Of a stretch of DNA of 64,000 bases, positions 1 through 62,948 are shown in pieces (position 1 is the stretch's first letter; every line of letters starts with the position of its first letter). The position numbers and the translations under genes are program-made. This DNA comes from a virus: positions 1 to 64,000 of IMG/VR virus record IMGVR_UViG_3300017759_003727; one strand, written 5' to 3'. Below the pieces are notes generated by a model. It was not told the DNA's origin. It did no database searches and saw only the letters and a program-made list of their open reading frames with translations.

Positions 1-351
1 ATTGAATATAGTAAGGAAAGCATTGACTAAATCCTTTGGAAGCATATGAGCCTCATCAAACAAGATAGTGATTTCATTGTGCATCACGATAGGTAGGAAT
101 ATCTGCTCAAAGAATGAATTAGCGTTCTTGATAGTGGAGCAGTTAATCTCAAGGAAAGCTCTTTGTGAGCCGTCTTTGTTTTTGAGGGAAGCTCCATAAC
201 GCTTGGCGAACTCAGTCTTACCCAAGCCCTTTGCCCCACTCAACATTAAGAATGGTGCAACACCTGTTTTGTTTTGTGCTTCTGAGAAAAAAGTTAATTG
301 CTTCTTAACTTCGTTTTGACCTATTAGGTTTTTATATGTGGTAGTTTTCAT
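1..351 (-). CDS. RuvB/clamp-loader-like AAA+ ATPase, N-terminal part
   Basis: The reading frame is open from an ATG at 351 to the window edge, giving the first 117 residues. It shows a RuvB-like start (a NLIGQNEVKKQL segment), a Walker A motif GAKGLGKT near residue 45 and a Walker B motif ILFDEAH near residue 100, the order found in RuvB and DnaX-type AAA+ ATPases. Such enzymes remodel Holliday junctions or load sliding clamps. The sensor and C-terminal domains are cut off, so the subfamily cannot be settled. The start is fixed by a sigma70 promoter ending 7 bases upstream. A sigma54-activator-type ATPase is an unlikely alternative. Confidence 0.85.
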   Translation of the reverse strand, partial: MKTTTYKNLIGQNEVKKQLTFFSEAQNKTGVAPFLMLSGAKGLGKTEFAKRYGASLKNKDGSQRAFLEINCSTIKNANSFFEQIFLPIVMHNEITILFDEAHMLPKDLVNAFLTIFN

Positions 352-358
352 AGTATGG

Positions 359-386
359 ATAATGACAGGTTAGGATTGTGTGTCAA
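359..386 (-). promoter_or_regulatory. sigma70-type promoter giving leaderless mRNA (AAA+ gene)
   Basis: On the minus strand TTGACA, 16 bases, CATTAT, then 7 bases to the ATG at 351. It overlaps the 3' end of the preceding gene. The transcript would start at or next to the ATG. Confidence 0.65.
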
Positions 387-642
387 TAAAATTGTGTACT
401 TTAAATGAGATTTTTTCTTCAACCTCTTTTGGTGCTTGTGAAACAGAAACTTTTGTTTGGTTAGCTTCTGTGATTGATGCCCCCATTTTTTCTAGCCATA
501 CACGACTAATTGGAATGAGAGTAGCTGACCCACAAAATTGTTGCAAGTCTTCTAGCTTTACATTGGCAAATGAGTTTGCCCCTTTCTTTCTGCCACTACC
601 TTGTTTTCTAGGTGTGCCGTCTTTGTTTAATGTATCTTTCAT
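370..642 (-). CDS. Small basic phage protein, unknown
   Basis: 90 residues starting MKDTLNKDGT. The first 28 residues are rich in Lys, Arg and Gly (RKQGSGRKKG), which suggests nucleic-acid contact; no family was recognised. The frame is open for three more codons upstream from a TTG, but the ATG at 642 lies exactly 7 bases after a perfect-looking -10 box, so it is taken as the start. Confidence 0.7.
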   Translation of the reverse strand: MKDTLNKDGTPRKQGSGRKKGANSFANVKLEDLQQFCGSATLIPISRVWLEKMGASITEANQTKVSVSQAPKEVEEKISFKVHNFIDTQS

Positions 643-649
643 AATACCC

Positions 650-677
650 AATATAGACTATGATTCTGATATGTCAA
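650..677 (-). promoter_or_regulatory. sigma70-type promoter giving leaderless mRNA
   Basis: TTGACA, 16 bases, TATATT, 7 bases, ATG at 642 (minus strand). One of the clearest copies of this architecture in the window. Confidence 0.75.
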
Positions 678-681
678 CAGG

Positions 682-725
682 TTTTTTTAAATTTTTAAAA
701 GTTTTTTTAAATTTATTTAAATTTT
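682..725 (-). repeat. Phased A-tract element
   Basis: Four A6/A7-type tracts separated by TTT, spaced about 10 bases (unit TTTAAAAAAA on the minus strand). It lies between a small membrane-protein gene and the promoter of the next gene. The same element recurs near 897, 1073, 2673, 3449, 5277 and 9772. Confidence 0.6.
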
Positions 726-733
726 GGATAGCA

Positions 734-883
734 TCATTTTTTTTGTTTGTCTAGGTTGAGTAATGTGTTTGCTCCAACGGCAAAGAAAATTGCGTTCTGT
801 ACCTCGCCCATACAAAACCACAAGATTGACACAATGAGGACAAGGACTGCCATATTTGGTGTTGGTAATATTTGGCGACTCAT
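734..883 (-). CDS. Small membrane protein, 49 residues
   Basis: ATG at 883 reads MSRQILPTPNMAVLVLIV and continues as one hydrophobic helix (residues 11-40), ending NLDKQKK. There is no Shine-Dalgarno sequence; the upstream DNA is a phased A-tract. It is too short for standard gene callers, but the helix-plus-basic-tail pattern matches its neighbours, which are also single-helix proteins. Function unknown; holin-type or membrane-modifying roles are possible. Confidence 0.55.
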   Translation of the reverse strand: MSRQILPTPNMAVLVLIVSILWFCMGEVQNAIFFAVGANTLLNLDKQKK

Positions 884-896
884 ATATTCGTGAGTA

Positions 897-923
897 AATT
901 TTTTTTAAATTTTTTTAAATTTT
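897..923 (-). repeat. Phased A-tract element
   Basis: Two to three copies of the 10-base unit, immediately upstream of the gene starting at 883 and overlapping the stop of the gene ending at 915. Confidence 0.6.
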
Positions 924-986
924 GCGAAAGTATTCATTGTAGATTACCCAAGCTATTCCGATTATTATATATATTAGACTCTCCAT
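915..986 (-). CDS. Membrane micropeptide, 23 residues
   Basis: ATG at 986 reads MESLIYIIIGIAWVIYNE and ends YFRKI: a single hydrophobic helix with a basic end. An in-frame ATG at 995 exists, but the start at 986 lies exactly 7 bases after a TATAAT box, matching the rest of the window. The strong promoter is the main reason for believing in this very short gene. Function unknown. Confidence 0.5.
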   Translation of the reverse strand: MESLIYIIIGIAWVIYNEYFRKI

Positions 987-993
987 ATTAAGC

Positions 994-1021
994 ATTATAT
1001 ATATTCGTCAACCAAAGTCAA
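994..1021 (-). promoter_or_regulatory. Strong sigma70-type promoter giving leaderless mRNA
   Basis: TTGACT, 16 bases, TATAAT (consensus), 7 bases, ATG at 986 on the minus strand. A second TTGACG lies inside the spacer. Confidence 0.75.
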
Positions 1022-1069
1022 GCAATATTTGGCTTTTTTTTAAATTGGCGAGCGATTTTTGTATGCCCC

Positions 1070-1107
1070 AAATTTTTTTAAATTTTAATAAACTTTTTTA
1101 AATTTCG
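1070..1107 (-). repeat. Phased A-tract element
   Basis: AT-only tract with three A6/A7 runs at about 10-15 base spacing, just 3' of the membrane-protein gene ending at 1109; a further single A-tract lies at 1028-1045. Confidence 0.5.
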
Positions 1108-1108
1108 G

Positions 1109-1393
1109 CTAATCTTGTTTAATGTTCCTTATTCTTTTATCATATGCTTTCTCATACTCGTATAATGCTCTAGGTACTAATGTCAATGAATCCCAAAATA
1201 TCTCAATAATAGCTATACCAATTCGTATAACTGTTATACCTATGAAATACAAGGGTGTTAAGACAACTCCTACTATAAAGGTCAATACAAACCCTAAATA
1301 AAACGAAAAATTTTGTTTCATAATTGCTGATGAAAAGATATATTTTAGAGAGCGAAAAGGGACAACTGTACATTTTATCCCATTTTCTACCAC
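1109..1393 (-). CDS. Membrane protein, unknown
   Basis: 94 residues from a GTG at 1393, preceded by an AGGGGA Shine-Dalgarno-like sequence inside the upstream gene's 3' end. An ATG at 1321 would give 70 residues and still include the hydrophobic region (two close helices, FYLGFVLTFIVGVVL and FIGITVIRIGIAIIEIF). The C-terminus is charged. No family recognised. It follows another membrane-associated small gene with a 6-base gap, so the two are probably co-transcribed. Confidence 0.6.
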   Translation of the reverse strand: MVENGIKCTVVPFRSLKYIFSSAIMKQNFSFYLGFVLTFIVGVVLTPLYFIGITVIRIGIAIIEIFWDSLTLVPRALYEYEKAYDKRIRNIKQD

Positions 1394-1399
1394 ACCAAT

Positions 1400-1648
1400 T
1401 TAAATCCCCTTTGTTTCCTCTCTATGTATATATGTTATCTCTCCTATGTCTTTGGGTAGGTTGGGGTGTATAGAATCCCTTAGAATAGGGGATTCAGAGG
1501 TATTAGTGTATAGTTTGCTATTCCACTTGTTTAGCTTGTGTCCTACTCTAATGAGAACATCTATAAGCCAACCCACAGAGGTTATGCTGATAGCGAGCGT
1601 AAATTTTAATAAATTTTTTATAATTTTTTTAAACTTTTTATAATTCAT
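1400..1648 (-). CDS. Small protein with one hydrophobic segment
   Basis: 82 residues starting MNYKKFKKIIKNLLK, an amphipathic Lys-rich N-terminus encoded by an A-tract, followed by a hydrophobic stretch (LAISITSVGWLIDVLI, residues 17-33) and a polar C-terminus. It looks like a membrane-anchored peptide. No family recognised. A TATAAA box lies a few bases before the ATG. Confidence 0.6.
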   Translation of the reverse strand: MNYKKFKKIIKNLLKFTLAISITSVGWLIDVLIRVGHKLNKWNSKLYTNTSESPILRDSIHPNLPKDIGEITYIHREETKGI

Positions 1649-1684
1649 CTTTTTATAGTTTGTAATGGGATTGTTAATTGTTTG

Positions 1685-1858
1685 TTAATCGAACCATTTT
1701 TGTGGTGGTATATTCTTTTGTTTCTCTCTTAATGCTTCATTCCTACGGACTAACATACGCTTTTCAGCGTGATATGCTTGACGCTCTCTGTAAGAATGTC
1801 GGCTCACACCACCACTTTTTGATAGCTCTTCTGATTCTTTTGGTTTGAATTGCCTCAT
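1685..1858 (-). CDS. Small basic protein, 57 residues
   Basis: ATG at 1858 reads MRQFKPKESEELSKSGG and ends IPPQKWFD. It is highly charged and probably helical (RERQAYHAEKR, RRNEALREKQK). It starts 2 bases after the stop of the upstream gene, the tight packing typical of this operon. No family recognised. Confidence 0.6.
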   Translation of the reverse strand: MRQFKPKESEELSKSGGVSRHSYRERQAYHAEKRMLVRRNEALREKQKNIPPQKWFD

Positions 1859-1860
1859 AC

Positions 1861-2307
1861 TTAAAACGGATAGAATTTTACATCAGCATTTCTTAAATCC
1901 TCATACTGACTTGTGGCTTCGTGATAAGAGTGGCTATAATTCCAATCTCTGCTTTCTGTATGTGTGGTCATTGGCATATTGAAAGCGTAATTTCTTATAG
2001 CATCTCGCTTGGCAAGTAATGTGCCTAACTCATCATACAACCCATTTAACTCTGCATAAAAGTCATATTCGGTGTCATACTTATAATACAATTCTTTCTT
2101 ATCATCAATCTTGCATTTAACGATACGAATATCTTGTTCTGTATCGCTGATAAGTCTGTTCTGTATATCTGTTCTCGTATCAAGAGATTGTTGCCTAGCT
2201 TTTGTCTCCATTGCTTCTGTATTGGCTTCTGCCTCTTGGCTTTTTTTATGCTCTCGCAATTCTTTCATTGTCATTTCTGCTTCTGTTTTTCTTGGTGGTG
2301 GTTTCAT
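1861..2307 (-). CDS. Coiled-coil protein, unknown
   Basis: 148 residues starting MKPPPRKTEAEMTMKELREH. Residues 10-90 are a long charged helix with a heptad-like pattern, followed by a more mixed C-terminus ending DVKFYPF. Its ATG shares one base with the TAA of the upstream 52-residue gene, so translation is probably coupled. A scaffold or adaptor role is possible but not shown. Confidence 0.7.
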   Translation of the reverse strand: MKPPPRKTEAEMTMKELREHKKSQEAEANTEAMETKARQQSLDTRTDIQNRLISDTEQDIRIVKCKIDDKKELYYKYDTEYDFYAELNGLYDELGTLLAKRDAIRNYAFNMPMTTHTESRDWNYSHSYHEATSQYEDLRNADVKFYPF

Positions 2308-2465
2308 TACTCTGCCATCTCCTTTCTGAACGCTTCAGCGTGTGCATATACCTCTTCGCTTGTTTCATCTCTGATGTCCTCTGCGAATGTTGGGTCTAAT
2401 ACCATCAACCTAGCAATCATTTTGACCATAAGTTGTTCCGACAATGTTAATTTTTGATAATCCAT
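2307..2465 (-). CDS. Small acidic protein, 52 residues
   Basis: ATG at 2465 reads MDYQKLTLSEQLMVKMIARL and ends FRKEMAE. It is helical and acidic, without a membrane segment. The start is supported by a near-perfect promoter 7 bases upstream. No family recognised. It heads a small operon of three to five genes running down to about 1109. Confidence 0.65.
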   Translation of the reverse strand: MDYQKLTLSEQLMVKMIARLMVLDPTFAEDIRDETSEEVYAHAEAFRKEMAE

Positions 2466-2472
2466 AATTTAT

Positions 2473-2501
2473 ATTATAGGGTTAATTTTACAATGTGTCA
2501 A
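2473..2501 (-). promoter_or_regulatory. Consensus sigma70 promoter giving leaderless mRNA
   Basis: TTGACA, 17 bases, TATAAT, 7 bases, ATG at 2465 (minus strand). Both hexamers match the consensus exactly. It overlaps the 3' end of the upstream gene. Confidence 0.8.
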
Positions 2502-2670
2502 GCTCTTTTCTCATAGTTTCAATAACTACTTTCTTAGCTTGGTTATACGATACAAAAGCATTAATAGATTTTTCTTCTGTCTTTGCTTTGTGGCTTTGAT
2601 ACTTAAATGTCATATCTGTAATTAAACAATCAAGCACAATTCTAATTCTTTCTTCTAGTCTTTCGTCCAT
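2488..2670 (-). CDS. Small helical protein, unknown
   Basis: 60 residues, MDERLEERIRIVLDCLITDM to KELDTL. Charged, probably all helical. It follows the upstream gene, whose end is encoded by the A-tract element, with a 2-base gap. No family recognised. Confidence 0.6.
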   Translation of the reverse strand: MDERLEERIRIVLDCLITDMTFKYQSHKAKTEEKSINAFVSYNQAKKVVIETMRKELDTL

Positions 2671-2672
2671 AA

Positions 2673-2698
2673 TTAAATTTTTTTAAATTTTTTTAAAT
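2673..2698 (-). repeat. Phased A-tract element at a gene junction
   Basis: Two full 10-base units. Here the element is also coding: it encodes the last residues (DLKKFKKI) of the gene ending at 2673 and ends just before the ATG at 2670. Confidence 0.65.
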
Positions 2699-2873
2699 CT
2701 TTGATAATTAGTTTTTTATCATCTTTACTTAGTTTTTTTATCCAAAGGTCATCAACATCTTTTAAATAAGTTGGGTTTTTAAATATTGGTTCGCTTCCAT
2801 TCATTTGATACATAATAGAATCTGCTTTAAAATAAAGACATTTTACGCTTGGTAATATAAAATAATCACTCAT
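2673..2873 (-). CDS. Small protein, unknown
   Basis: 66 residues, MSDYFILPSVKCLYF onwards, ending KDLKKFKKI. The basic end is a by-product of the A-tract element. The ATG overlaps the stop of the 32-residue gene upstream. No family recognised. Confidence 0.6.
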   Translation of the reverse strand: MSDYFILPSVKCLYFKADSIMYQMNGSEPIFKNPTYLKDVDDLWIKKLSKDDKKLIIKDLKKFKKI

Positions 2874-2964
2874 TTCTGTCTCCTCTCTCTAAATCTTTGA
2901 ACCATTCAATGAACATAGCCACCAAATACCAACAAGCGACAAATAATATTATATCCCAAATCAT
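2866..2964 (-). CDS. Membrane micropeptide, 32 residues
   Basis: ATG at 2964 reads MIWDIILFVACWYLVAMFIE and ends RGDRNE: one hydrophobic helix with a charged tail. Both ends overlap neighbouring genes by four to eight bases (ATGA with the gene ending at 2961, and the start at 2873). That overlap pattern, repeated throughout the operon, is the support for it being real. Confidence 0.55.
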   Translation of the reverse strand: MIWDIILFVACWYLVAMFIEWFKDLERGDRNE

Positions 2965-3170
2965 AGCATTTTCCCCAAATCTTTTCTTTTTTTATAGTGT
3001 TTTGTTTGTTTTCTCTCCCAATTATAATATTCCTGTTCCTTTCTTCTGCAAGCTTTACGGATATAATCCTTCTCACTATCTACATAGTAACAGAGCCACC
3101 AACAGAATAGCGAAAAGGTTATCATCGCCCCAAAGAAAAACAATACTGCATATACTTCCTGTGGAATCAT
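2961..3170 (-). CDS. Small membrane protein
   Basis: 69 residues from the ATG at 3170, reading MIPQEVYAVLFFFGAMIT, with one hydrophobic helix (residues 7-30) and a Lys/Arg/Tyr-rich cytoplasmic tail (KEQEYYNWERKQTKHYKKRK). The ATG overlaps the upstream TGA as ATGA. The frame is open five codons further upstream, but that start would lie inside the preceding gene. Function unknown. Confidence 0.6.
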   Translation of the reverse strand: MIPQEVYAVLFFFGAMITFSLFCWWLCYYVDSEKDYIRKACRRKEQEYYNWERKQTKHYKKRKDLGKML

Positions 3171-3448
3171 TCGGCTTCTTCCCAATATTCATCTTCTTCA
3201 TTGAAGACATACTTAACACCCTCAGTCATTTCACTTGGGTCACGATTCTCTGCGAAACACTCTGCTAAAACCTCAACAACTGCCGAATCAGATAATTCGT
3301 TTCGTTCTGTGTCGTAAAAGTTTATGTTACCACCATTGTCATCATCATCAATCACAACAACGATTTCTTGGTCTTTGTACTTAACTCGTAGTGTGTGCAA
3401 CACTCGTCTGTAAGTTTCTTCTGCTGATTTTATAATTTCTATACTCAT
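3167..3448 (-). CDS. Acidic protein, unknown
   Basis: 93 residues from the ATG at 3448 (MSIEIIKSAEETYRR). The frame stays open upstream through the A-tract element, but that part is non-coding leader by analogy with other copies. It has an Asp/Glu-rich middle (VVVIDDDDNGG) and end (EEDEYWEEAE). Acidic early proteins of this size often bind host proteins or mimic DNA; nothing here proves it. Confidence 0.6.
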   Translation of the reverse strand: MSIEIIKSAEETYRRVLHTLRVKYKDQEIVVVIDDDDNGGNINFYDTERNELSDSAVVEVLAECFAENRDPSEMTEGVKYVFNEEDEYWEEAE

Positions 3449-3472
3449 AATTTTTTTAAATTTTTTTAAATT
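3449..3472 (-). repeat. Phased A-tract leader element
   Basis: Two exact copies of the 10-base unit directly abutting the ATG at 3448. There is no Shine-Dalgarno sequence in this leader. Confidence 0.65.
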
Positions 3473-3984
3473 ATCCACGAGGGTTTGTTTTTCTTCCAAG
3501 TGGCAAAAGGTTTGTCGTGTTTGTAATATAAGCGATACTTACCTACTTCGTCAACAGAATCGAATGTTGGCTCTTGTCTGCAAGTCATATTCTCGCTGAT
3601 GGCGATTGCAAAGGTTGTTTGCTCGATACTCTCGTCTGCCAAGTTGTCGGCACGAAAAGGGTGGTCGAAAGCCCAATGCAGGAACTCTGCTGAGAAATGT
3701 GGCTTGAAGCCTCTGTCTAACCTCTCGACTTCCATAGCGAGAGAATGTTCGAGAAGCCATCTCATATTCCCAAAGGTAGCTCTCGCCCAAATAGAGCAAG
3801 GGTGCTTGTAGTAAGAGTGCTTGCGAGCAGTACCCTTTTGTGTCTTGGGTGCTGACTCAAGCGTCTCTAGTGAAAAGCAGTTGGCAACCATCTGTGCTGA
3901 CTCTAGCACCATCTTGTTACAATGTTGGTCGCACAACCACTTGGCTGATTGGATTGGGTCTTGGTCTATACAAAATATATTCAT
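3466..3984 (-). CDS. Conserved phage protein (MNIFCIDQDP family)
   Basis: 172 residues from the ATG at 3984, which overlaps the upstream TGA as ATGA; the longer frame from 4008 would intrude on the endolysin gene. The start MNIFCIDQDPIQSAKWLCDQ followed by HCNKMVLESAQMV belongs to a family seen in many marine phages, with conserved His, Cys and Trp residues (CDQHCNKM, HPCSIWAR, YKHDKPF). It is a soluble protein. I recall homologues being annotated only as hypothetical; a DNA-repair role has been suggested for distant relatives but cannot be shown here. Confidence 0.75.
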   Translation of the reverse strand: MNIFCIDQDPIQSAKWLCDQHCNKMVLESAQMVANCFSLETLESAPKTQKGTARKHSYYKHPCSIWARATFGNMRWLLEHSLAMEVERLDRGFKPHFSAEFLHWAFDHPFRADNLADESIEQTTFAIAISENMTCRQEPTFDSVDEVGKYRLYYKHDKPFATWKKNKPSWII

Positions 3985-4439
3985 AGGTGTATTCTGACTT
4001 TTTCCCAATATCTGTCAAGATTTTTTTGCTTCTTATCATTCTTTGGATTATCCACTCGTTTCCAAGCAGAGCCACCACCATTCCAAATGAAAGCTAGGTG
4101 CTTTGCAGTTGGGTTCTCAATCCCTTTCATATAATGAAAGAAGATTTCTTGTGCGATTATGTAAGCCATAGCCCTGTTATAAGCAATGTCGTGAGCATAA
4201 TCTTGATTAGTGATTCTGTTATAGTCGGCAATCATAATAGGTCGAATCTGCAACGAACCAATAGCATTTTCTGCTTGGTTAATAGCATAAGAATTTTGAT
4301 TCGATTCTACCTTTTCGATAGCTACGATAACATCAATGACATCAACGCTACCGAATAGTTGAGATGTGCAAGCCTTAACACACACAAAAACAAATGCGAC
4401 AAGAATAACAATTCTTCCAATTTTTTCTAATTTATCCAT
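3981..4439 (-). CDS. Signal-anchored endolysin (lysozyme/transglycosylase-like)
   Basis: 152 residues. Residues 8-28 form a hydrophobic segment (IGRIVILVAFVFVCVKACTS), then a muramidase/lytic-transglycosylase-like domain: a catalytic-Glu segment IEKVESNQNSYAI, GSLQIRPIMIADYNRI and the late motif FIWNGGGSAW. Phage endolysins with an uncleaved N-terminal helix (signal-arrest-release type) are exported by the host and released later, without needing a large holin hole. It lies among small membrane proteins that could be its partners. An outer-wall entry enzyme is a less likely alternative, given the membrane anchor. Confidence 0.75.
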   Translation of the reverse strand: MDKLEKIGRIVILVAFVFVCVKACTSQLFGSVDVIDVIVAIEKVESNQNSYAINQAENAIGSLQIRPIMIADYNRITNQDYAHDIAYNRAMAYIIAQEIFFHYMKGIENPTAKHLAFIWNGGGSAWKRVDNPKNDKKQKNLDRYWEKVRIHL

Positions 4440-4731
4440 AATATTCTCTGTTTTTCATTATAATCCAATTACCATTACCCTCAAGACCCATAACATTGTA
4501 TTCAGTAAACTCAATGGCTTCATCGTGTTCCATATTGCTTGGCTCTTTCATAAATACTTCTATGATTTTCTCATAGTCGTAAACTAGATAACCTAATGAT
4601 GTTACTCCAACGATTGCATCGTTGAGTCCGTCTAATTTTAAACAATCTTCTGCAAGGTATTCTTGCAACTCGATTGGTGCTTGATTGTCGTCCTCATCTT
4701 CGAGAAATCCGTCTTGATTTTGTTTGTTCAT
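4432..4731 (-). CDS. Conserved phage protein of unknown function
   Basis: 99 residues. After an acidic N-terminus it has the pattern LDGLNDAIVGVTSLGYLVYD followed by DEAIEFTEYNVMGLEGNG, which I recognise as a common small phage protein family present in many marine and cyanobacterial phages. No function is known for the family. It overlaps the endolysin start by 8 bases and the upstream gene by 38 bases. Confidence 0.75.
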   Translation of the reverse strand: MNKQNQDGFLEDEDDNQAPIELQEYLAEDCLKLDGLNDAIVGVTSLGYLVYDYEKIIEVFMKEPSNMEHDEAIEFTEYNVMGLEGNGNWIIMKNREYYG

Positions 4732-4861
4732 TTTTACAATATGTTTGGTAGGTTTCTTTTTTCATTTCTTCTTCAAGTTTTGATTGAAGCCAATTTAAAA
4801 AGTCATTTTGGTTTTTACCATTGGACTCGTTTTCGACTGATTTGTCAACATTTATACTCAT
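4694..4861 (-). CDS. Small charged protein, 55 residues
   Basis: ATG at 4861 reads MSINVDKSVENESNGKNQND and ends SRRISRR. It contains an amphipathic helix (DFLNWLQSKLEEEMKKE). The ATG overlaps the upstream TGA as ATGA, and the 3' end overlaps the next gene by 38 bases in another frame. No family recognised. Confidence 0.5.
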   Translation of the reverse strand: MSINVDKSVENESNGKNQNDFLNWLQSKLEEEMKKETYQTYCKNEQTKSRRISRR

Positions 4862-5067
4862 AAATCTTTAGGATAATTAACTGTAATTGGTGGTTTTGAT
4901 TTTGGGTGTTGTTTAAACTTTAAAAGCAAATCTAACATCTGTTTTTTATGTCTAACTTCTTGTTTAAAAAGCTCATCTTCCAATGTCATTGTTGGTAATG
5001 TGCCTTGTCTTGCATTTATATCGAGCCAATATTGTGTATCGGCAATTAATTCTTCTACCCAATCCAT
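4858..5067 (-). CDS. Small helical protein, unknown
   Basis: 69 residues from the ATG at 5067 (MDWVEELIADTQYWLD); the codon before it is GTG, but the ATG overlaps the upstream TGA as TGATG. Mostly helical, with a Pro/Lys-rich end (KQHPKSKPPITVNYP). No family recognised. Confidence 0.6.
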   Translation of the reverse strand: MDWVEELIADTQYWLDINARQGTLPTMTLEDELFKQEVRHKKQMLDLLLKFKQHPKSKPPITVNYPKDL

Positions 5068-5276
5068 CACAAAGGTCTTTCTAAAAACTCTTTGACTTCT
5101 TGAGTAGATTCTTCGCCCTCGATTTTGACCACGACTTCGTGTTCCTTACCACTCAGAGCTTTCATTTGTCTTTTGCAATCATTAGCCCAATGTAATGAGC
5201 CTTTGATTTCTGTTGAATAGAAATTAACAACCTTTTTGGTTTTAACTTCTCGAACTTGATATGTAGCATTCGCCAT
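5067..5276 (-). CDS. Small protein, unknown
   Basis: 69 residues from the ATG at 5276 (MANATYQVREVKTKK). The upstream in-frame extension is encoded by the A-tract element and is rejected as non-coding. The beginning looks like a beta-hairpin (TYQVREVKTKKVVNFYST) followed by a helix with WANDCKRQMKAL, a pattern common in small phage and plasmid proteins. Function unknown. Confidence 0.65.
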   Translation of the reverse strand: MANATYQVREVKTKKVVNFYSTEIKGSLHWANDCKRQMKALSGKEHEVVVKIEGEESTQEVKEFLERPL

Positions 5277-5305
5277 AATTTTAATAAATTTTTTTAAATT
5301 TTTAA
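5277..5305 (-). repeat. Phased A-tract leader element
   Basis: A-tract units abutting the ATG at 5276, as at 3449. No Shine-Dalgarno sequence in the leader. Confidence 0.6.
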
Positions 5306-5358
5306 TGTTTAAGTTTTTGGGGACGAGCGATTCGTTCACTCGCCCCCAAGGTTTAATT

Positions 5359-5565
5359 CTAATTGTCTAATGCAACTGCATCAACAATGTCTAGGGAGTT
5401 TACCATTGGGTCGATTTTAAAGTGGTCTGCTAAGACATCTTCAAAAGCACCCATCGTTGTTTCCAACTTTTCTCCATCATCTCCTTGTAGAGTATAGGTA
5501 GTCTTTTTAGGAAAAACATTACCATCATCTACTTCGATTGTGATTGATTTAATTTTAATACTCAT
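5359..5565 (-). CDS. Small acidic protein, unknown
   Basis: 68 residues, MSIKIKSITIEVDDGNVFPK onwards, with predicted beta strands then a helix (GAFEDVLADHFKI). Acidic overall. Followed by about 50 bases of non-coding sequence before the next A-tract. No family recognised. Confidence 0.6.
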   Translation of the reverse strand: MSIKIKSITIEVDDGNVFPKKTTYTLQGDDGEKLETTMGAFEDVLADHFKIDPMVNSLDIVDAVALDN

Positions 5566-5629
5566 CTTTATCTTTTGACGAATTAATAATTAAAGTGAGA
5601 AGAAAAAAGAAAAAGAAGCCAAACAACAT
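5555..5629 (-). CDS. Possible membrane micropeptide, 24 residues
   Basis: ATG at 5629 reads MLFGFFFFFLLTLIINSSKD and ends KDEY. A run of Phe and Leu makes a hydrophobic helix. The end overlaps the start of the next gene. It fits the pattern of micropeptides here, but there is no clear ribosome-binding site or promoter and the sequence is simple, so it may be chance. Confidence 0.35.
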   Translation of the reverse strand: MLFGFFFFFLLTLIINSSKDKDEY

Positions 5630-5656
5630 AATTGCAGTTTCAGCGTTTGTTTCCAA

Positions 5657-6517
5657 TTATTCTTCTTCTTCATAGTATTCTTCATCATCATAATCTTCAT
5701 CATAATCGTTATCCTCATTAACATCGCCATTTGTATAAATGCTATAATAAGGTTGTTTAATTTCGGAATCTTCTTCAACTGCGATTTCTTCAAGTATCTC
5801 ATACTTGCACACTCGCAACTTCTGACATTCACAATCTTGTGGAACGCTTACTGCATCTCTTGGATTGAAGCGAACGAGCAATAGCTTACCACCACTTGCC
5901 CAACTATTCGCATAATCGTATGAGCCGATATGCAATCCGTGAGAGCATTGGTTTTGGCGATTGTCGTCAACGCTTCTACGCTGAACTTCAATAGTATCGC
6001 CAACACGATTCATAATCTGACCACGCTCATTTGTTTCGCCCTGTAAAACGACAGTTTGAGTGTTGCCACTTTGTGACCAACCATCAGAGCAAACTCCTTT
6101 GTATCCAACAACATATCCGTCATCATCAATAGCGAGAGACTTGTAGGAAAGAAAGTCGTACAATTCTTCAACAGAGTTGTTGCTTGGGTTGTCCAACAAA
6201 TTCTTTACGAACTTAACAAATGGATTGCCCACTTTCATACCACTCTCAAGTAGCTCAAGTAGTTTGTCCACAACCTTGCCGTGAAGCTGATTGCTATTCC
6301 AATAAACTGCACCATTCTTTACGATTAGCTCTCCATCAGCAAATTCTTCGACTTGCTTACGAATGTCTAGGTAGTTGATTGCAGTTTCAAAATCCCCACT
6401 AATCAATGCCTTTTTGAAAGGGGCAAAGTTTGCGTGTGAGGATTCGAGTGTATAAGGCTTGCCCTCGTAAAGTAGGGTTGCCGTGTTGTCTGATACGATG
6501 TATGGATAATTAGCCAT
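5657..6517 (-). CDS. rIIB: rIIB-like protein
   Basis: 286 residues, close to T4 rIIB (312). The middle has the family pattern LSYKSLAIDDDGYVVGYKGV and, further on, the segment HGLHIGSYDYANSWASGGKLLLVRFNP, typical of rIIB and related phage proteins. The end is very acidic (DEDYDDEEYYEEEE). In T4, rIIA and rIIB act together at the membrane to counter the RexAB exclusion system and influence lysis. Here rIIA is two genes upstream, which supports the pair. The leader carries AAAGGA at a normal distance, so this gene, unlike many here, has a Shine-Dalgarno sequence. Confidence 0.85.
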   Translation of the reverse strand: MANYPYIVSDNTATLLYEGKPYTLESSHANFAPFKKALISGDFETAINYLDIRKQVEEFADGELIVKNGAVYWNSNQLHGKVVDKLLELLESGMKVGNPFVKFVKNLLDNPSNNSVEELYDFLSYKSLAIDDDGYVVGYKGVCSDGWSQSGNTQTVVLQGETNERGQIMNRVGDTIEVQRRSVDDNRQNQCSHGLHIGSYDYANSWASGGKLLLVRFNPRDAVSVPQDCECQKLRVCKYEILEEIAVEEDSEIKQPYYSIYTNGDVNEDNDYDEDYDDEEYYEEEE

Positions 6518-6539
6518 TTTAGTTTTTCCTTTGTTAATA

Positions 6540-6548
6540 ATTTACACT
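6540..6548 (-). promoter_or_regulatory. Late-type box, non-standard spacing (rIIB leader)
   Basis: AGTGTAAAT on the minus strand but 22 bases before the ATG at 6517 instead of 6. It may be a second promoter for rIIB or chance. Confidence 0.3.
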
Positions 6549-6553
6549 TTAGT

Positions 6554-7315
6554 TTACTTCTTTATACTACCATCAGATGCTTGATTGTCAAGCACTTTTG
6601 CCCAATAATAGCAGTCTTTTTCTCCTTTTTTTCTGTTCCAATATATCGCTCTAGCGATTGCACTAGGAACATTATACATTGAAGAAAATTCTATCCAATG
6701 ATTCTCAATTTTTTGATACTCACTTAGATGTTTAGATTGGTCGAGTCCATAGGCTTGGAACAGGTGTGTGTCTGCACACATTACTTTTGCATCAAAGGTG
6801 TATATCATCTCTAAAGCGAACGATACCTTTGCCAAGCCCAAGCCCAAGATTTCTTTCACAAGACCATCACGGAACTCTGACCATTTCTGATTTTTTTTAA
6901 ATTTAAATAAATTTGGGTTCTGCCAAAATTTTGTAGCGAACTGACTGATAAATTTAGTGCGATTGTGATACAGACCGACTCCACTTTTGATTAGCTTTTG
7001 TTTAAGCACATCATCACGATTAAACCATTCGGTAAAGTCTTTGATTGCAAGGTAGCCTCGCATATTCGATTCGTAAGATGTATGGACGGAACAGAAAGCA
7101 AACAACCATTTTTGGAACACTTCCATATCGTTGGTGCATTTGAGCTTCTCCCAAACAAGTGAGGTGTCGATAATTTCATCTTCGGTAATTGAAGCAAAGA
7201 ACTTCTCCACATCACGCTTGTCGCATTTTTGAATGTGAACACGATTCTTGTCATCAAGGAAATTTAATTGTTGAGCTTCCTTAGTCTCAGTATAAGTTAA
7301 AAAATCTAATTGCAT
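6554..7315 (-). CDS. HhH-GPD-type DNA glycosylase-like protein
   Basis: 253 residues. The C-terminal half has a helix-hairpin-helix-like segment (ILGLGLAKVSFALEMIY, about residue 156) followed by MCADTHLFQAYG, which matches the spacing of the hairpin and catalytic Asp in endonuclease III/OGG-type glycosylases. These excise damaged bases from DNA. The catalytic Lys is one position away from its usual place, so a lyase activity is uncertain. It lies between rIIA and rIIB, which is unusual; the rII genes are normally adjacent. Confidence 0.5.
   Translation of the reverse strand: MQLDFLTYTETKEAQQLNFLDDKNRVHIQKCDKRDVEKFFASITEDEIIDTSLVWEKLKCTNDMEVFQKWLFAFCSVHTSYESNMRGYLAIKDFTEWFNRDDVLKQKLIKSGVGLYHNRTKFISQFATKFWQNPNLFKFKKNQKWSEFRDGLVKEILGLGLAKVSFALEMIYTFDAKVMCADTHLFQAYGLDQSKHLSEYQKIENHWIEFSSMYNVPSAIARAIYWNRKKGEKDCYYWAKVLDNQASDGSIKK
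6564..6591 (-). promoter_or_regulatory. sigma70-type promoter for rIIB with a 46-base leader
   Basis: TTGACA, 16 bases, TAGTAT on the minus strand, overlapping the 3' end of the upstream gene. Unlike the leaderless copies, the ATG is 46 bases downstream and has a Shine-Dalgarno sequence. Confidence 0.7.
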
Positions 7316-7345
7316 TATAAAATAATTTGTTTGATTAAAAGATTG

Positions 7346-7377
7346 GTTGGCTAGGGACTACCACACCCCTAGCCAAC
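7346..7377 (-). terminator. Perfect 11-bp hairpin after rIIA
   Basis: GTTGGCTAGGG and its exact complement, with a 10-base loop, 13 bases after the rIIA stop. On the minus strand it is followed by CAATCTTTTAATC, a weak U-tract. It may be a terminator, an RNA-stability element or a processing site between rIIA and the next gene. Confidence 0.6.
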
Positions 7378-7389
7378 GCTGATTATCTA

Positions 7390-9531
7390 CTACTTTCCGA
7401 TATACGCTAACACATCTGAAATATTCGTTGCTCTGTCGCCAATGCAACCCTCAAGGCAATACTTTGCCATAGGAAACGCTTTGTCGAAAGCTCGCTTCCT
7501 CGCTAATGATTCGCCACTTAACTTTTGTGGCTTGAGTCTTTCCATCACATAGTCGTGATTGTAATCTTGATTGTAAACTTTTGATTGTTTCAATCTCCAA
7601 CCATCATAATTTTTTAATAAATTTTTTAAAATTTCATTTAGGTTATCTTTTGGGAACTTAGCAATATCTTCCATCAAGGTTTTGTCGTACTCATTAAAAA
7701 GCTCTTTTTCTTCGTACCACTTAACATAGTTTTGAATACTCTCGTCTTGCTTGACCAAATCTTCATAGACATCATCAAGGCAAATCCAATTATCCTTTTT
7801 CTCAATTCGACTCTTTAGGTTTTTACGAACACCCCAAATGCTTTCTTTTAAATTAGGAATGTTTGATAAATAACTTTTAATGAATTGATAAGGATTAATT
7901 TCACATTCGCCACTTGCACCAAGGTGTTTTTTGTAAGGCTCAAAAGTAATTTTGTTCGCATAGTAATTAACATAATAGAATGTTTTACTATCGTCATCAA
8001 AATCCACATCTTTGTCTATTCCCCAATAGGAATCAAGATTTGCCCACTCGTGTCGAACACTACTGTCGAACTTTAGAATATCCATAGCTGATAAAGATTT
8101 CACAACACCTTTCTTCCTAGCTTTCTGTGGAGCAATCATTCGCTCGCACTCTGAGAGCAGTTTGACATTTGGGTGGTTACAATCTTTGACTCGCTGAATA
8201 CACAAGGCATCAGTATCGTATGTGCCATCAATACTATCGGCTTTCATACCCTGTGAATTGATAAGCACAATCTTGGCGAATCCTCTGTCTATGTTATTCT
8301 CTTTCTCCCAATCGTGCAGGAACATACATCTTGACTTTGGAGAGCGAGGACTTGGAGAATCATCAACGATATAAATTACATCTTTTTTTGGAGCGTTATC
8401 ATTGTAAGTGTACCTTGAATGAGAGAAACTCAAGTTACCATTTTCTCTAGTGGTAATGTGAGTTTCTTTACTAATCCAATCTTTAGGAAATAGAATACCA
8501 TTCACATCTTTGAACTTGTCAGAAGAGACTTTGAGCTTTGTACCGAATCTCTGTCTGTAAGTTTCCATAGCTCTGTGCATAATCTCACTAGCTTCATAGA
8601 AAGTATCAGCCTTGTCCATCTGACTAGCTAACTCTTCATTGAGCTTGGCGAATATCTTATCTGATGCTTTCTTGAGAGCTTTTTTAACTGACGGATTATA
8701 CTCCAATGTCTCACGACTATGGTGCAACTTGAACTCGCCAATCTCTGCTTTATAAACAACACCATTCTTGAACATAAACCATTCTTCATCTTTGTTTACC
8801 TTGTATGGAATACCACCCATAAGAACATAGGGTTCGTCTCCATAGTGAGCGACATCTTCCCAATAACTATTCTCTCTATACAAATCAAATACATCATTGG
8901 ATTCTTGTGCTTCGCCCAATCTTAAATCGCCCCAACCCTCGTTGAGTAGCTCAATATCATCTTTACGATACCACCAAGTTTTTTTAAAAATTTTAAAAAA
9001 TTGTTCAATGTCATCTCTTTTGATTCCGACTTGAATATAAATTCCATCAGCTTCTTTAGTTGGCTGACTTTCAATTTGCGAAACAATAGTATCGTCTTGT
9101 TCGTCCACTCTTATAATATAGGAATGTTTGTGACCTTTATGTACAGACCTTACAATAAAAGAATCTGTATATGATAAAGGTGCGAATCGCCCAATGCCAA
9201 ATCCACCGATTGATTCGTTGGACTCACGCTTGGTTGACTTGCCATACTTAGTATAAAGACCTAGCATATCTTCCTCACTCAAACCACACCCAAAATCTCG
9301 TACTATAAAGTTAGGTTCGATTCTAGTTGGTAATTGAATGTCTACCTTTTTGCTTTTAGTAACATCAAGTGCATTTGCAATAATCTCACGAATGGTAGCT
9401 AACATCGGATTGGAATAATTATTCCGTAAAAGAGATGCAATGTATCGCATATCTTCTGTATCAATAGAACAAGACTTTTGCTTGGCAATGCCTTGGGACT
9501 TTATGTTTTTGGTTTTGGTTTCGATAATCAT
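7390..9531 (-). CDS. rIIA: rIIA-like GHKL ATPase
   Basis: 713 residues, about the size of T4 rIIA (725). The N-terminus has the GHKL nucleotide-binding motifs in order: N-box IREIIANALDVTKSKK (about residue 43), G1 box RDFGCGLSEEDM (about 73) and GGFGIGRFAPLSY (about 105), as in rIIA, MutL and Hsp90. The rest is a long family-specific region. It works with rIIB at the cell membrane in T4, blocking a prophage exclusion system. The ATG at 9531 is fixed by its promoter. Two internal A-tracts occur (at 7611 and 8981) where they encode Lys-rich helices. Confidence 0.9.
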   Translation of the reverse strand: MIIETKTKNIKSQGIAKQKSCSIDTEDMRYIASLLRNNYSNPMLATIREIIANALDVTKSKKVDIQLPTRIEPNFIVRDFGCGLSEEDMLGLYTKYGKSTKRESNESIGGFGIGRFAPLSYTDSFIVRSVHKGHKHSYIIRVDEQDDTIVSQIESQPTKEADGIYIQVGIKRDDIEQFFKIFKKTWWYRKDDIELLNEGWGDLRLGEAQESNDVFDLYRENSYWEDVAHYGDEPYVLMGGIPYKVNKDEEWFMFKNGVVYKAEIGEFKLHHSRETLEYNPSVKKALKKASDKIFAKLNEELASQMDKADTFYEASEIMHRAMETYRQRFGTKLKVSSDKFKDVNGILFPKDWISKETHITTRENGNLSFSHSRYTYNDNAPKKDVIYIVDDSPSPRSPKSRCMFLHDWEKENNIDRGFAKIVLINSQGMKADSIDGTYDTDALCIQRVKDCNHPNVKLLSECERMIAPQKARKKGVVKSLSAMDILKFDSSVRHEWANLDSYWGIDKDVDFDDDSKTFYYVNYYANKITFEPYKKHLGASGECEINPYQFIKSYLSNIPNLKESIWGVRKNLKSRIEKKDNWICLDDVYEDLVKQDESIQNYVKWYEEKELFNEYDKTLMEDIAKFPKDNLNEILKNLLKNYDGWRLKQSKVYNQDYNHDYVMERLKPQKLSGESLARKRAFDKAFPMAKYCLEGCIGDRATNISDVLAYIGK

Positions 9532-9538
9532 TCCACAA

Positions 9539-9566
9539 ATATTGCCATAGATTTTTAATATGTCAA
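9539..9566 (-). promoter_or_regulatory. sigma70-type promoter giving leaderless rIIA mRNA
   Basis: TTGACA, 16 bases, CAATAT, 7 bases, ATG at 9531 (17/AATATT/6 is an equivalent reading). Confidence 0.7.
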
Positions 9567-9576
9567 GCCCTCATAG

Positions 9577-9609
9577 CAAAAAAAATCGCCCCAAGATTGA
9601 GACGATTTT
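9577..9609 (-). terminator. Rho-independent terminator upstream of rIIA
   Basis: On the minus strand an 11-bp stem (AAAATCGTCTC pairing with GGGGCGATTTT, two or three G-U pairs) and a 6-base loop run into a T8 tract. It isolates rIIA and its promoter from the membrane-protein operon upstream. Confidence 0.7.
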
Positions 9610-9651
9610 GTAAGTGGCTAAAAACCAACGACTTATGAGTAAAATTTTTTT

Positions 9652-9771
9652 TTACTTTTTTCCAATAAGTTTCTTTGCAAAGCCAACAACAGATTCAACA
9701 ACGCCTGTATGTTTACGCCCAACAAGAATACCTACTGTAAAGCCAACGAGAAAAATAACGATTGTATTCAT
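9652..9771 (-). CDS. Small membrane protein, 39 residues
   Basis: ATG at 9771 reads MNTIVIFLVGFTVGILVGRK followed by a Lys-rich tail (VGFAKKLIGKK). One glycine-containing hydrophobic helix, similar in style to YtxH-type or accessory holin peptides. The A-tract element lies directly upstream. Confidence 0.55.
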   Translation of the reverse strand: MNTIVIFLVGFTVGILVGRKHTGVVESVVGFAKKLIGKK

Positions 9772-9797
9772 AATTTTTAAATAATTTTTTTAAATTT
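9772..9797 (-). repeat. Phased A-tract leader element
   Basis: AT-only leader with A-runs at about 10-base spacing between the stop of the gene ending at 9796 and the ATG at 9771. Confidence 0.5.
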
Positions 9798-10107
9798 AAG
9801 AGGCACTTTTCTTAGTAGTGCGTTTACGAGCAACTTTTTTCTTTGCTACCTTTTTCTTGGCAGTTTTTTTAGTTGCAGTTTTTTTGGGTGCTTTCCCACC
9901 TTCCCACGCTTCATTTTTTGGTGTGGTTGGGTCGTCAGCTACGAATTCGCCTTTGCTTGTTCTAGCTCGCTTCGGCTTGCTCGTGCTTGATGTTTTATTT
10001 GGCTCACTAGACTTCGGTGAGCGATTTTTATTTCTTTTGGTTTCGATAACTGCAACAACAACGATTGCAACTAGAAACCAAGTGATTGGGTTTGTTAATA
10101 ATTCCAT
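9796..10107 (-). CDS. Membrane protein with a histone H1-like lysine-rich tail
   Basis: 103 residues in three parts: an N-terminal hydrophobic helix (PITWFLVAIVVVAVIE, residues 7-22), a linker containing KGEFVADDPTTPKNEAWEGG, and a tail of KKTAKKK/KKKVAKKK-type repeats like histone H1 or AlgP. The middle motif (ADDPTTPKNEAW) recurs in other phage proteins. The tail should bind DNA or another polyanion, so the protein may tether DNA to the membrane. That role is inferred. Confidence 0.7.
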   Translation of the reverse strand: MELLTNPITWFLVAIVVVAVIETKRNKNRSPKSSEPNKTSSTSKPKRARTSKGEFVADDPTTPKNEAWEGGKAPKKTATKKTAKKKVAKKKVARKRTTKKSAS

Positions 10108-10147
10108 ATATATACTTATTTGCGATTTTTTTAATTAGTGAGCGATT

Positions 10148-10426
10148 TTAGTCCTCGTCAGAACCTTTATGTTTATCTGTGATATGACGCTCTTGTATTA
10201 GAATTTTTAATTTCATATTTAATCTAATCATATCATTATCTAATGCTTGGATTTGCTTTTTTAGCTTTCCTAGCGAAGAACCCACGCCATCTAAGGCAGG
10301 ATTAACTTTAGTGGTGACCCATTTCCAAATGTGCCACACGAAAAATCCAAGACCCACTAATGCGATTAGTGAGAATCCGAATTTGGCAATTATATCTGCC
10401 CAGTGTTGAAATTCATATCCACTCAT
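10148..10426 (-). CDS. Membrane protein with coiled coil (holin-like)
   Basis: 92 residues: one hydrophobic helix (FGFSLIALVGLGFFVWHIWKW, residues 16-36), then a coiled coil (LGKLKKQIQALDNDMIRL) and an acidic, His-containing tail. This layout is seen in phage BhlA/XhlA-like lysis accessory proteins. It lies in a run of four similar membrane proteins. Confidence 0.6.
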   Translation of the reverse strand: MSGYEFQHWADIIAKFGFSLIALVGLGFFVWHIWKWVTTKVNPALDGVGSSLGKLKKQIQALDNDMIRLNMKLKILIQERHITDKHKGSDED

Positions 10427-10445
10427 AATTTTATATTATATATTG

Positions 10446-10601
10446 TTAAAGTCTTTTTTCTATTTTTTTTTGTTCTATGATGTATTCTTTTTCCTTAGTT
10501 TCTTTTTTGAAATTGTTTAAACGCCAAACTTCTCTTTCAAGAGAGTCCACTCTTTTGAAAAGTTTTTCTATTTGATAATTATCTATTTGGAAATCAGTCA
10601 T
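10446..10601 (-). CDS. Small coiled-coil protein, 51 residues
   Basis: ATG at 10601 reads MTDFQIDNYQIEKLFKRVDS and ends KKIEKRL; all helix, with heptad-like Leu/Val spacing (VDSLEREVWRL). Its start overlaps the end of the upstream dioxygenase gene by 8 bases. Probably a spanin- or holin-accessory-like coiled coil, but it has no signal or anchor. Confidence 0.55.
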   Translation of the reverse strand: MTDFQIDNYQIEKLFKRVDSLEREVWRLNNFKKETKEKEYIIEQKKIEKRL

Positions 10602-13100: not shown

Positions 13101-13666
13101 TATTTATATACAGCCCAACATTCCTTTTTTGATTGTGATTGAAAATATTTAGGAGTAGCAATAAATTTTTCTGATACTAATCTATTTAAATGTTTCATTA
13201 TGTTTTGTTGATATCCAAAATGATGACCACAATCATCAAGCATAACTATAGTATCTCTGTGGGATAAGCCTCTACAATTAATCATATCATGATATGGCAC
13301 ATCTCCTAAATGACCACCATCAATAAAGATAAAATCATACGGAGCACTACTCATTGAGAATAAAACTTTTTTAGAGTCTCCAATAATAATTTTAAATCTA
13401 TTTGGGTATTTGTTTTTTACAAAGTCGTAACAAGTAGTAACATAATGATGTTCTCCTATATCCACTGATGTGACTTTGATGTCATCTCTTAAAGAAAGCA
13501 TAAAATCAGAAGAGTGACCCGCGTTAAACCCTACCTCTAAAACATTTTTAATTGTTGGATCATTTTTAAATAATTTTTTTAAAAAAGGTTTTTGGCCATT
13601 TATTCGACCCTCTTTTAATTGAATATTATTTCGAGATAAAAATAAGTTTAATGAGTTTTCTTCCAT
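13094..13666 (-). CDS. Class I SAM-dependent methyltransferase
   Basis: 190 residues. Rossmann-fold SAM-binding motif VLEVGFNAGHSSDFML (about residue 39), acidic ribose-binding VTSVDIGEH, then a DGGH motif (IFIDGGHLGDVPYHD) and a VMLDDCGHH motif as in O-methyltransferase/Methyltransf_24 proteins of glycan pathways. The two His/Asp motifs may bind a metal. Substrate unknown; sugars are likely given the many carbohydrate genes. Overlaps the next upstream gene by 19 bases. Confidence 0.75.
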   Translation of the reverse strand: MEENSLNLFLSRNNIQLKEGRINGQKPFLKKLFKNDPTIKNVLEVGFNAGHSSDFMLSLRDDIKVTSVDIGEHHYVTTCYDFVKNKYPNRFKIIIGDSKKVLFSMSSAPYDFIFIDGGHLGDVPYHDMINCRGLSHRDTIVMLDDCGHHFGYQQNIMKHLNRLVSEKFIATPKYFQSQSKKECWAVYKYV

Positions 13667-62077: not shown

Positions 62078-62661
62078 TTTTTAAGTTTAAATATATATTT
62101 TAATTGATTATTTGGTGAAATTTCTTCTGCAAAGAGAAAATATGGAGACAGAATACTAAAAAGAACCTCAAATTCTATTTTTTTACTTATTCCTAATTTA
62201 TTGAATTGAGCTTTTATTTCTATTTCTTTTATTTTAGTTTTATTAAAATTTATACCTTTTATAACCTCAGATTCATAACCTTCAACATTTAAATACAGTT
62301 TTTCTATTTCTAGTATGTTTATTTCTTCTAGTATTGCTTGCAGTGTAGATGCTGAACATTTATGTTTTTTAGCAGAATGTATTTCTATTTGTTCGCTTAC
62401 AAAATCTTCTTTTACATCTAAAACGCTACATTGCTCTAGGGAATGTTTTTCGTTTAAAATTATATAATTATCTTTATACTCTGAAGAAACTAACGCTTTG
62501 TTGATTAAAATATTTTTCTCTGTTCTGTTTTGTTTTAATCTATCAAATGAATATGGGTGGGGTTCGATCAGTATACAACATATGTCTTCATAACTATCAC
62601 ACCAAGAAGTGACGCCTTGAAACAAGCCATCCTGGGCACCAGCTTCTATTACATAATGCAT
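62071..62661 (-). CDS. FkbM-family methyltransferase
   Basis: 196 residues from the ATG at 62661 (MHYVIEAGAQDGLFQGVTSW), overlapping the upstream TAA. FkbM pattern: VIEAGAQDG (SAM site), CILIEPHPYSFDRLKQN, TLQAILEEINILEIEKLYLN then VEGYESEVIKGI. O-methylation of sugars is the usual role. Confidence 0.75.
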   Translation of the reverse strand: MHYVIEAGAQDGLFQGVTSWCDSYEDICCILIEPHPYSFDRLKQNRTEKNILINKALVSSEYKDNYIILNEKHSLEQCSVLDVKEDFVSEQIEIHSAKKHKCSASTLQAILEEINILEIEKLYLNVEGYESEVIKGINFNKTKIKEIEIKAQFNKLGISKKIEFEVLFSILSPYFLFAEEISPNNQLKYIFKLKNV

Positions 62662-62948
62662 TAGCCCCAAAGATTATAAGCTATAATACCTGCAATTGCA
62701 GTAAGCAAACCGCTAATAAAAATCCAAGATAGTTTATTAAATGTAGTCATGAAAGCCTTTGTTTCTCCAACAGTTCTTTCCATTTCCATCATTCTTGAAT
62801 TCATATCATCTATTTTTTTGAACAATACATCTGTAAGTGTGCCTAATTGAATTAGTTTTTCTTCAGCTCTAGCGATTGAAATAACAGCATCAGATAGTTT
62901 GTCTATCTTCTCCTCCATTCTCGTTAATCTATCTTCATTTTCGGACAT
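62661..62948 (-). CDS. XhlA-like membrane protein (lysis accessory)
   Basis: 95 residues: an N-terminal coiled coil (NEDRLTRMEEKIDKLSDAVI, VLFKKIDDMNSRMMEMERTV) and a C-terminal membrane helix (LSWIFISGLLTAIAGIIAYN LWG end). This matches haemolysin XhlA/holin-accessory proteins. The late-type box fits a late lysis role. Confidence 0.7.
   Translation of the reverse strand: MSENEDRLTRMEEKIDKLSDAVISIARAEEKLIQLGTLTDVLFKKIDDMNSRMMEMERTVGETKAFMTTFNKLSWIFISGLLTAIAGIIAYNLWG

Follow-up and report, generated by a model that had tools for sequence, protein, structure and literature searches.

We identified five very small open reading frames (ORFs), here called A to E, that encode hydrophobic peptides in a marine tailed-phage lineage. 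The stretch that we analysed, hereafter the window, comprises bases 1–64,000 of the linear, 82,910-base IMG/VR virus record IMGVR_UViG_3300017759_003727. As a first, sequence-only reading had noted, the ORFs have 49 (A), 23 (B), 32 (C), 24 (D) and 39 (E) amino acids (aa). All lie on the minus strand, in a block of small genes around homologues of rIIA and rIIB and a gene for a membrane-anchored SLT-like protein. By comparison with relatives, A, C and E stand as real micropeptide genes, support for B is good, and D, for which the evidence is positional, is likely a gene. Across the loci compared the peptides range from 17 to 49 aa, all below 100 aa. We see about an even chance that A–E are translated inner-membrane proteins whose role is, most concretely, the timing of lysis.

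The evidence for coding comes from related phages. Six relatives (loci L003–L008) were retrieved using rIIB; L003, L004, L007 and L008 share the greater part of the block's genes with the window, L005 and L006 a smaller part, and the L007 contig stops shortly past the start of C. Overlapping pieces of the same records were excluded when ORFs were counted across relatives. We randomly placed the observed base changes of ungapped sequence pairs and rescored protein similarity in all six frames. In the coding frame, p was 0.0005–0.0185 for E (six pairs), 0.0005–0.004 for A (four pairs), 0.002–0.021 for C (three pairs) and 0.0005 for B (the single pair testable without gaps), the pairs sharing ancestry and thus not being independent. 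The other frames were mostly unremarkable. Low values occurred in antisense frames for E (L007–L008, 0.0015 and 0.0115; L003–L008, 0.0115; L003–L007, 0.0275; window–L006, 0.0335) and for A (L003–L004, 0.0035; L004–L008, 0.003), and off frame for C (+1 frame, window–L004, 0.0495; +2 frame, L003–L004, 0.011). The ratio of nonsynonymous to synonymous substitution rates (dN/dS) for E is 0.08 between the window and L006, 0.17 between the window and L005, and 0.20 between L005 and L006; other pairs reach 0.67, many with saturated synonymous sites. In a larger table of constraint measures, gapped alignments of D and B, which favour high scores, were given no weight. The proposal that membrane-type micropeptides lie here below the usual length cut-offs is therefore borne out by in-frame constraint for A, B, C and E, together with conserved place; frame conservation in related phages, which had been suggested as a check, is seen for these four, and D is conserved by place.

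D occupies the gap between rIIB and the next gene. In all seven loci (the window and L003–L008) a hydrophobic ORF of 18–33 aa bridges this gap, with a TTG or GTG start at −1 to +2 nucleotides from the rIIB stop and a stop that overlaps the next gene by 4–11 nucleotides (11 in the window). The GTG of L005 and L006 shares one base with the rIIB stop. An eighth locus, L046, which had been retrieved for another purpose, holds a 17-aa ORF with an ATG at +5 and a 4-nucleotide overlap, so that the arrangement is present in eight of eight loci. L046 is a 5.6-kb contig binned with a metagenome-assembled genome of Candidatus Arcticimaribacter, and is probably a stray phage contig within that bin. Because the seven relatives start −1 to +5 nucleotides from the rIIB stop, D in the window may start at the TTG that abuts this stop. 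We did not find D in L025 or L026. A tblastn search without a convincing match had suggested that D is not conserved, a conclusion overturned by reading the rIIB gap in each relative.

Dinucleotide shuffles yield a D-like ORF at a rate of 0.024–0.086 per locus, and the product of these rates is not a fair probability because the loci are related. Such an ORF is present in 14 of 106 co-directional gaps of 40–130 nucleotides examined in the window and 16 loci: all seven rIIB gaps and seven of the other 99. Of the latter seven, three come from L024, L025 and L026, two form a similar pair from L005 and L006, and the remaining two are the small genes surrounding C. A 20-aa hydrophobic gap-bridging ORF of similar sequence was seen in L005 (18402–18454) and L006 (18571–18622), on the minus strand in both.

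These counts bear on the possibility that A–E are chance ORFs of AT-rich DNA. The window has 33% G+C, and T-rich gaps readily give hydrophobic frames, as the seven non-rIIB gaps illustrate. However, the in-frame constraint with its off-frame controls disfavours chance for A, B, C and E, and place and overlaps are conserved in four to ten loci. We consider this explanation very improbable.

E is present in nine of 22 whole records, the window's included, and in L046, which gives nine relatives, the L009 peptide being identical to that of L007; among these 22, the records of L025, L026 and L027, which are more distant, gave no match. A scan with E for relatives returned only the records of L005 and L006. 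A match in Erwinia phage FBB1 (expectation value (E-value) 0.08) was set aside, as it lies inside an 84-aa gene adjoining tRNAs. E is closest to its counterparts in L006 (87%) and L005 (72%), whereas the adjoining rIIA is closest to that of L003 (91%, versus 65% for L005 and 43% for L006). This discordance is a probable sign of recombination between E and rIIA.

A was found in eight of the 22 whole records, three of which (L054–L056) belong to an otherwise unrelated phage group. It is not in the records of L006, L025, L026 and L027, and its position is not covered by the pieces carrying L007, L009 and L014. When 27 window ORFs (one of them mis-framed) were compared with the L054–L056 group, A gave the sole match at an E-value of 0.001 or less. 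A profile built from the A sequences of the window's lineage scores the L054 protein at 36.7 bits, against a maximum of 12.8 in shuffles (4,940 of 5,000 scored). Homologues in other phages align from residue 13, so the conserved core of A starts near an inner ATG. L054, L055 and L056 are near-identical in this stretch and therefore count as one case, uninformative on selection there. In L054, A starts on the base that ends the stop codon of a 32-aa hydrophobic ORF; a 26-aa hydrophobic ORF lies farther upstream, and the 3' end of A overlaps the next gene by eight nucleotides. A Pfam scan of the L054 version of A and these two one-helix ORFs gave no match. A protein with a signal-like start that matches NlpC/P60 above the Pfam cut-off is encoded 739 nucleotides beyond A; it need not be the endolysin, because the same record has an Amidase_2 match elsewhere.

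On visual inspection, a short element resembling GCCAAATATTG is repeated around the starts of A and B and their promoters, at 860–880 and 1016–1031 of the window and near A in L003, L004, L005, L006 and L008. A pattern search of the window for such elements gave two matches against 0.77 expected, a count equalled in 16 of 100 shuffles and thus not above chance.

C overlaps its upstream neighbour by four nucleotides and the next gene by eight in the window. The ATGA overlap with the upstream gene is kept in all five loci that carry C (the window, L003, L004, L007 and L008), including L004, where the upstream gene encodes a different hydrophobic protein; the L007 copy is cut by the contig end. 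C is not in the records of L005 and L006 among the 22 searched, and a scan with C confirmed no further relatives. In L007 an extra 31-aa one-helix ORF (13300–13395), with overlaps, precedes the 69-aa gene that lies before C. Comparisons of the families of C, A, E and the 69-aa protein and seven other small ORFs with shuffles (28 combinations; lowest, 13 of 2,000) gave no link that survives multiplicity.

The description of these genes as encoding single helices fits B, C and E, each with one hydrophobic stretch; A, with two, is not clearly a one-helix protein. Promoters or stop-start overlaps had been said to support most of them. This is true of C and D, which have overlaps, and of B, which has a promoter-like site matching 11 of 12 positions; A and E have neither in the window.

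B follows its promoter-like site closely. In all four close loci (the window, L003, L004 and L008) a promoter-like −10 box is followed by an ATG after 6–7 nucleotides, and the frame encodes 23, 23, 17 and 23 aa, respectively. The assignment of B in L003 and L004 rests on place, because a B profile missed them or scored them at chance level; the protein-level alignment with the L003 version is poor. In L005 and L006 the same promoter type precedes a gene of 61–62 aa in place of B; a 21-aa hydrophobic ORF lies on the opposite side of A in L005.

This layout extends beyond B. We listed promoter-like sites with at least 10 of 12 matches and TTGAC kept, some promoters being counted twice with two spacers. 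An ATG lies 6–7 nucleotides past the −10 box in seven of 15 rows on the minus strand of the window versus none of six on the plus strand, and in 25 of 67 rows in nine related loci. Such leaderless-type rows precede rIIA (9538–9566), the ORFs at 370–642 (650–677) and 2307–2465 (2473–2501), and B (994–1021), and the layout is common to the relatives. The top three promoter-like sites of bases 1–10,600 (12, 11 and 11 of 12 matches) are all of this type. The number of promoter-like sites in the region, 46 versus 37.2 ± 5.6 in shuffles, shows no clear enrichment. Transcripts of the leaderless-type genes probably begin at the ATG. As phage transcripts are often leaderless according to one phage paper (PMC5312081), the layout is not new in kind.

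The motif AATTTAAAAAAATTT, allowing one mismatch, has 19 copies in the window versus 0.74 expected and is present in the relatives too. Fourteen of the 19 copies, of which 13 lie on the minus strand, fall within bases 1–10,000, and many directly precede small-gene starts (for example at 907–921, 2675–2699, 3448–3472 and 5286–5300). The motif may act as a signal in translation or regulation.

B and D could alternatively be regulatory frames, leader or coupling peptides whose translation matters and whose product does not, with B acting for the gene behind it and D passing ribosomes on from rIIB to the gene that follows. Both occupy short gaps and are strongly diverged in sequence; D reaches from the rIIB stop to the following start codon, and B, of 17–23 aa, lies behind a promoter. 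However, the hydrophobicity of D is kept beyond what composition gives, as the per-locus shuffle rates indicate, and B is under protein-level constraint in the pair tested. We regard this explanation as improbable.

Table 1. Coordinates of A–E and neighbouring features in the window.
Feature	Position	Strand	Remarks
A, 49 aa, two hydrophobic stretches	734..883	-	conserved core 734-853, ~39 aa
B, 23 aa, one hydrophobic stretch	915..986	-	inner ATG of 26-aa ORF
Promoter-like site TTGACT-16-TATAAT, 11/12	994..1021	-	before B; leaderless-type spacing, 7 nucleotides to ATG
70-aa hydrophobic protein, conserved neighbour	1109..1321	-	related proteins in L003, L004, L005, L006, L008, L025, L032
82-aa protein with hydrophobic stretch	1400..1648	-	related proteins in L003, L004, L005
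C, 32 aa, one hydrophobic stretch	2866..2964	-	5/22 records
69-aa protein, hydrophobic N-terminus	2961..3170	-	stop overlaps C start; related proteins in L003, L007, L008
SLT-like protein, 152 aa, N-terminal hydrophobic anchor	3981..4439	-	PF01464, 20.1 bits (20 in a second scan), just below cut-off 21.3
D, hydrophobic bridging ORF	5555..5656 or 5555..5629	-	33 aa (TTG start abutting rIIB stop) or 24 aa (ATG start)
rIIB homologue	5657..6517	-	phrog_609, E-value 5.3e-58
rIIA homologue	7390..9531	-	phrog_612, E-value 7.5e-76
Terminator-like hairpin	9582..9609	-	between E and rIIA
E, 39 aa, one hydrophobic stretch, lysine-rich tail	9652..9771	-	just upstream of rIIA

The virus record encodes rIIA, rIIB and tail genes; a tRNA search of the window found none, and bases 1–10,500 have no near match in 50,697 named phage records. 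In the order of minus-strand transcription, the block runs from the ORFs at 10148–10426 and 9796–10107 through E, rIIA, a glycosylase-like gene, rIIB, D and small genes to the SLT-like gene, a Pyr_excise-like gene, further small genes including C, and finally B, A and the ORF at 370–642. The 92-aa protein encoded at 10148–10426 has relatives in Methylophilales phages Melnitz and Pelagibacter phage HTVC008M (six records, 29–38% identity). In Methylophilales phage Melnitz-3 and Pelagibacter phage HTVC008M these relatives (L047 and L048) are encoded directly upstream of curli-type CsgF and CsgG genes.

The SLT-like protein has matches in eight of 13 records searched (the window's, L003–L008 and L025). 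SLT lytic transglycosylases carry ES, GxxQI and YNxG-like motifs, and VES, G-x-x-QI and WNGGG are kept in the five aligned proteins, in agreement with these motifs. A structure model has a mean predicted local distance difference test score (pLDDT) of 59, a fold search found no match below an E-value of 0.99, and a profile search of PDB sequences gave none. The assignment as an SLT enzyme therefore rests on the sub-threshold Pfam match and the motifs. In the records of L005 and L006 an SLT-like protein with a signal-like start is encoded at another place, close to hydrophobic ORFs (49 and 45 aa), and in L025 the gene follows that of a 95-aa hydrophobic protein with a 1-nucleotide overlap. These settings fit a lysis role for the SLT-like protein and hint weakly at one for the micropeptides. 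Searches for PF00959, PF13539, PF01510 and PF00877 in part of the proteins of five group records that may be fragments (G000, G003, G004, G006 and G014) gave no match to these four families.

The roles first suggested for such genes, namely lysis, exclusion or membrane stress, are plausible from place and protein type. Context leans a little towards lysis control, as rIIB ends at D, E lies upstream of rIIA, and the SLT-like protein is encoded in the block. Under the lysis-timing reading, A–E would be expressed from the small-gene block, and early, given its sigma-70-type promoters, with B made from a leaderless-type transcript, C translationally coupled to the 69-aa protein and D to rIIB. The peptides, being hydrophobic, would insert in the inner membrane, where the small helices may bind or perturb membrane components and affect the timing of lysis together with RIIA, RIIB and the membrane-anchored SLT-like protein. 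Their sequences drift fast, whereas hydrophobic stretch, place and overlap persist. A more specific version, to which we give only a small chance, makes A–E a lysis-control set in which D and E tune RIIA and RIIB at the membrane, and A and C are tiny holin or antiholin partners of exported cell-wall enzymes. Translation of D would begin at the rIIB stop, and what is conserved in the set would be place and hydrophobicity, not sequence. Such a set would account for the second setting of A, which in an otherwise unrelated phage group lies upstream of the gene for an exported NlpC/P60 protein.

Several observations weigh against the view that A–E are translated lysis-timing proteins. The single ungapped pair of D sequences (eight changes) gives p = 0.0195 in frame versus 0.021 and 0.006 in other frames, and constraint on C between L003 and L004 is weak (dN/dS 0.87, with the low +2-frame value given above). 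The link to lysis is one of neighbourhood only, and E and D keep their places beside rIIA and rIIB in L005 and L006, where the SLT-like gene is found elsewhere. Far from A–E, a 95-aa protein encoded at 62661–62948 has a weak hemolysin-type match (phrog_937, E-value 1.7e-4) and is a possible rival holin candidate. Moreover, the mechanism of T4 rIIA and rIIB is described in one account as unrelated to the holin pathway (PMC6832632).

The main rival to lysis timing is that A–E are superinfection-exclusion or host-takeover factors, which keep out the DNA of rival phages or inhibit membrane enzymes of the host; rIIA, rIIB and the SLT-like gene would then be mere neighbours within a densely packed accessory region. 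A–E do lie among many small genes with sigma-70-type promoters, their fast drift is as expected of arms-race genes, and the neighbouring ORF at 9796–10107 has a weak superinfection-exclusion match (phrog_4980, E-value 0.02). However, this match is near chance, and D and E are retained beside rIIB and rIIA even in the clade whose SLT-like gene lies elsewhere, which suggests some tie to rII. We consider exclusion or takeover possible but less likely. Our best guess for A–E is that they are accessory inner-membrane effectors.

Genes of 17–49 codons, shorter than the usual cut-offs, could here be supported through relatives when place, overlap and promoter register were considered along with sequence; tblastn alone missed D. 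The rIIB-coupled D and an A family common to otherwise unrelated phages are concrete, testable targets. Should A–E prove to control lysis timing, they would count as very small components of a timing system, and the rII question could be taken beyond T4.

A–E add new families to a known kind, the small membrane proteins of phages, and do not constitute a new kind of system. In tblastn searches of named phages (E-value ≤1), neither C nor A, in its window and L054 versions, had a match, and E had a single weak one. A PHROGs scan of A, B, C and E gave a best E-value of 0.0078, to a family of unknown function, and no match to a described holin family. We recognised no published account of A–E in the literature searched; the survey by Fremin and others, which reportedly covers small genes in phage genomes, may list some.

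Holins and pinholins are small hydrophobic proteins with charged ends, and A and E resemble them in all three respects. A–E, at 17–49 aa, are however shorter than typical holins, and they do not adjoin the SLT-like gene. TimP, a small toxic membrane protein of Salmonella that targets the inner membrane and is repressed by a small RNA, was similarly overlooked (PMC7667032), and hydropathy predicts inner-membrane placement for A–E as well. As described there, however, TimP is host-encoded and small-RNA-repressed, whereas A–E are phage-encoded and no Rfam family reached its gathering score. The T4 rII region with its lysis-inhibition genes offers a further parallel, as rIIA and rIIB homologues adjoin E and D here, although an rIIB-coupled micropeptide does not figure in the T4 account as far as it was available (PMC6832632). 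Finally, phage proteins below 100 aa have been described as short, long overlooked and fast-evolving, with little homology among them and with host- or lysis-directed roles (PMC11323111). A–E resemble them in these respects, their own roles being putative; the proteins described in that account are soluble regulators, whereas A–E are hydrophobic.

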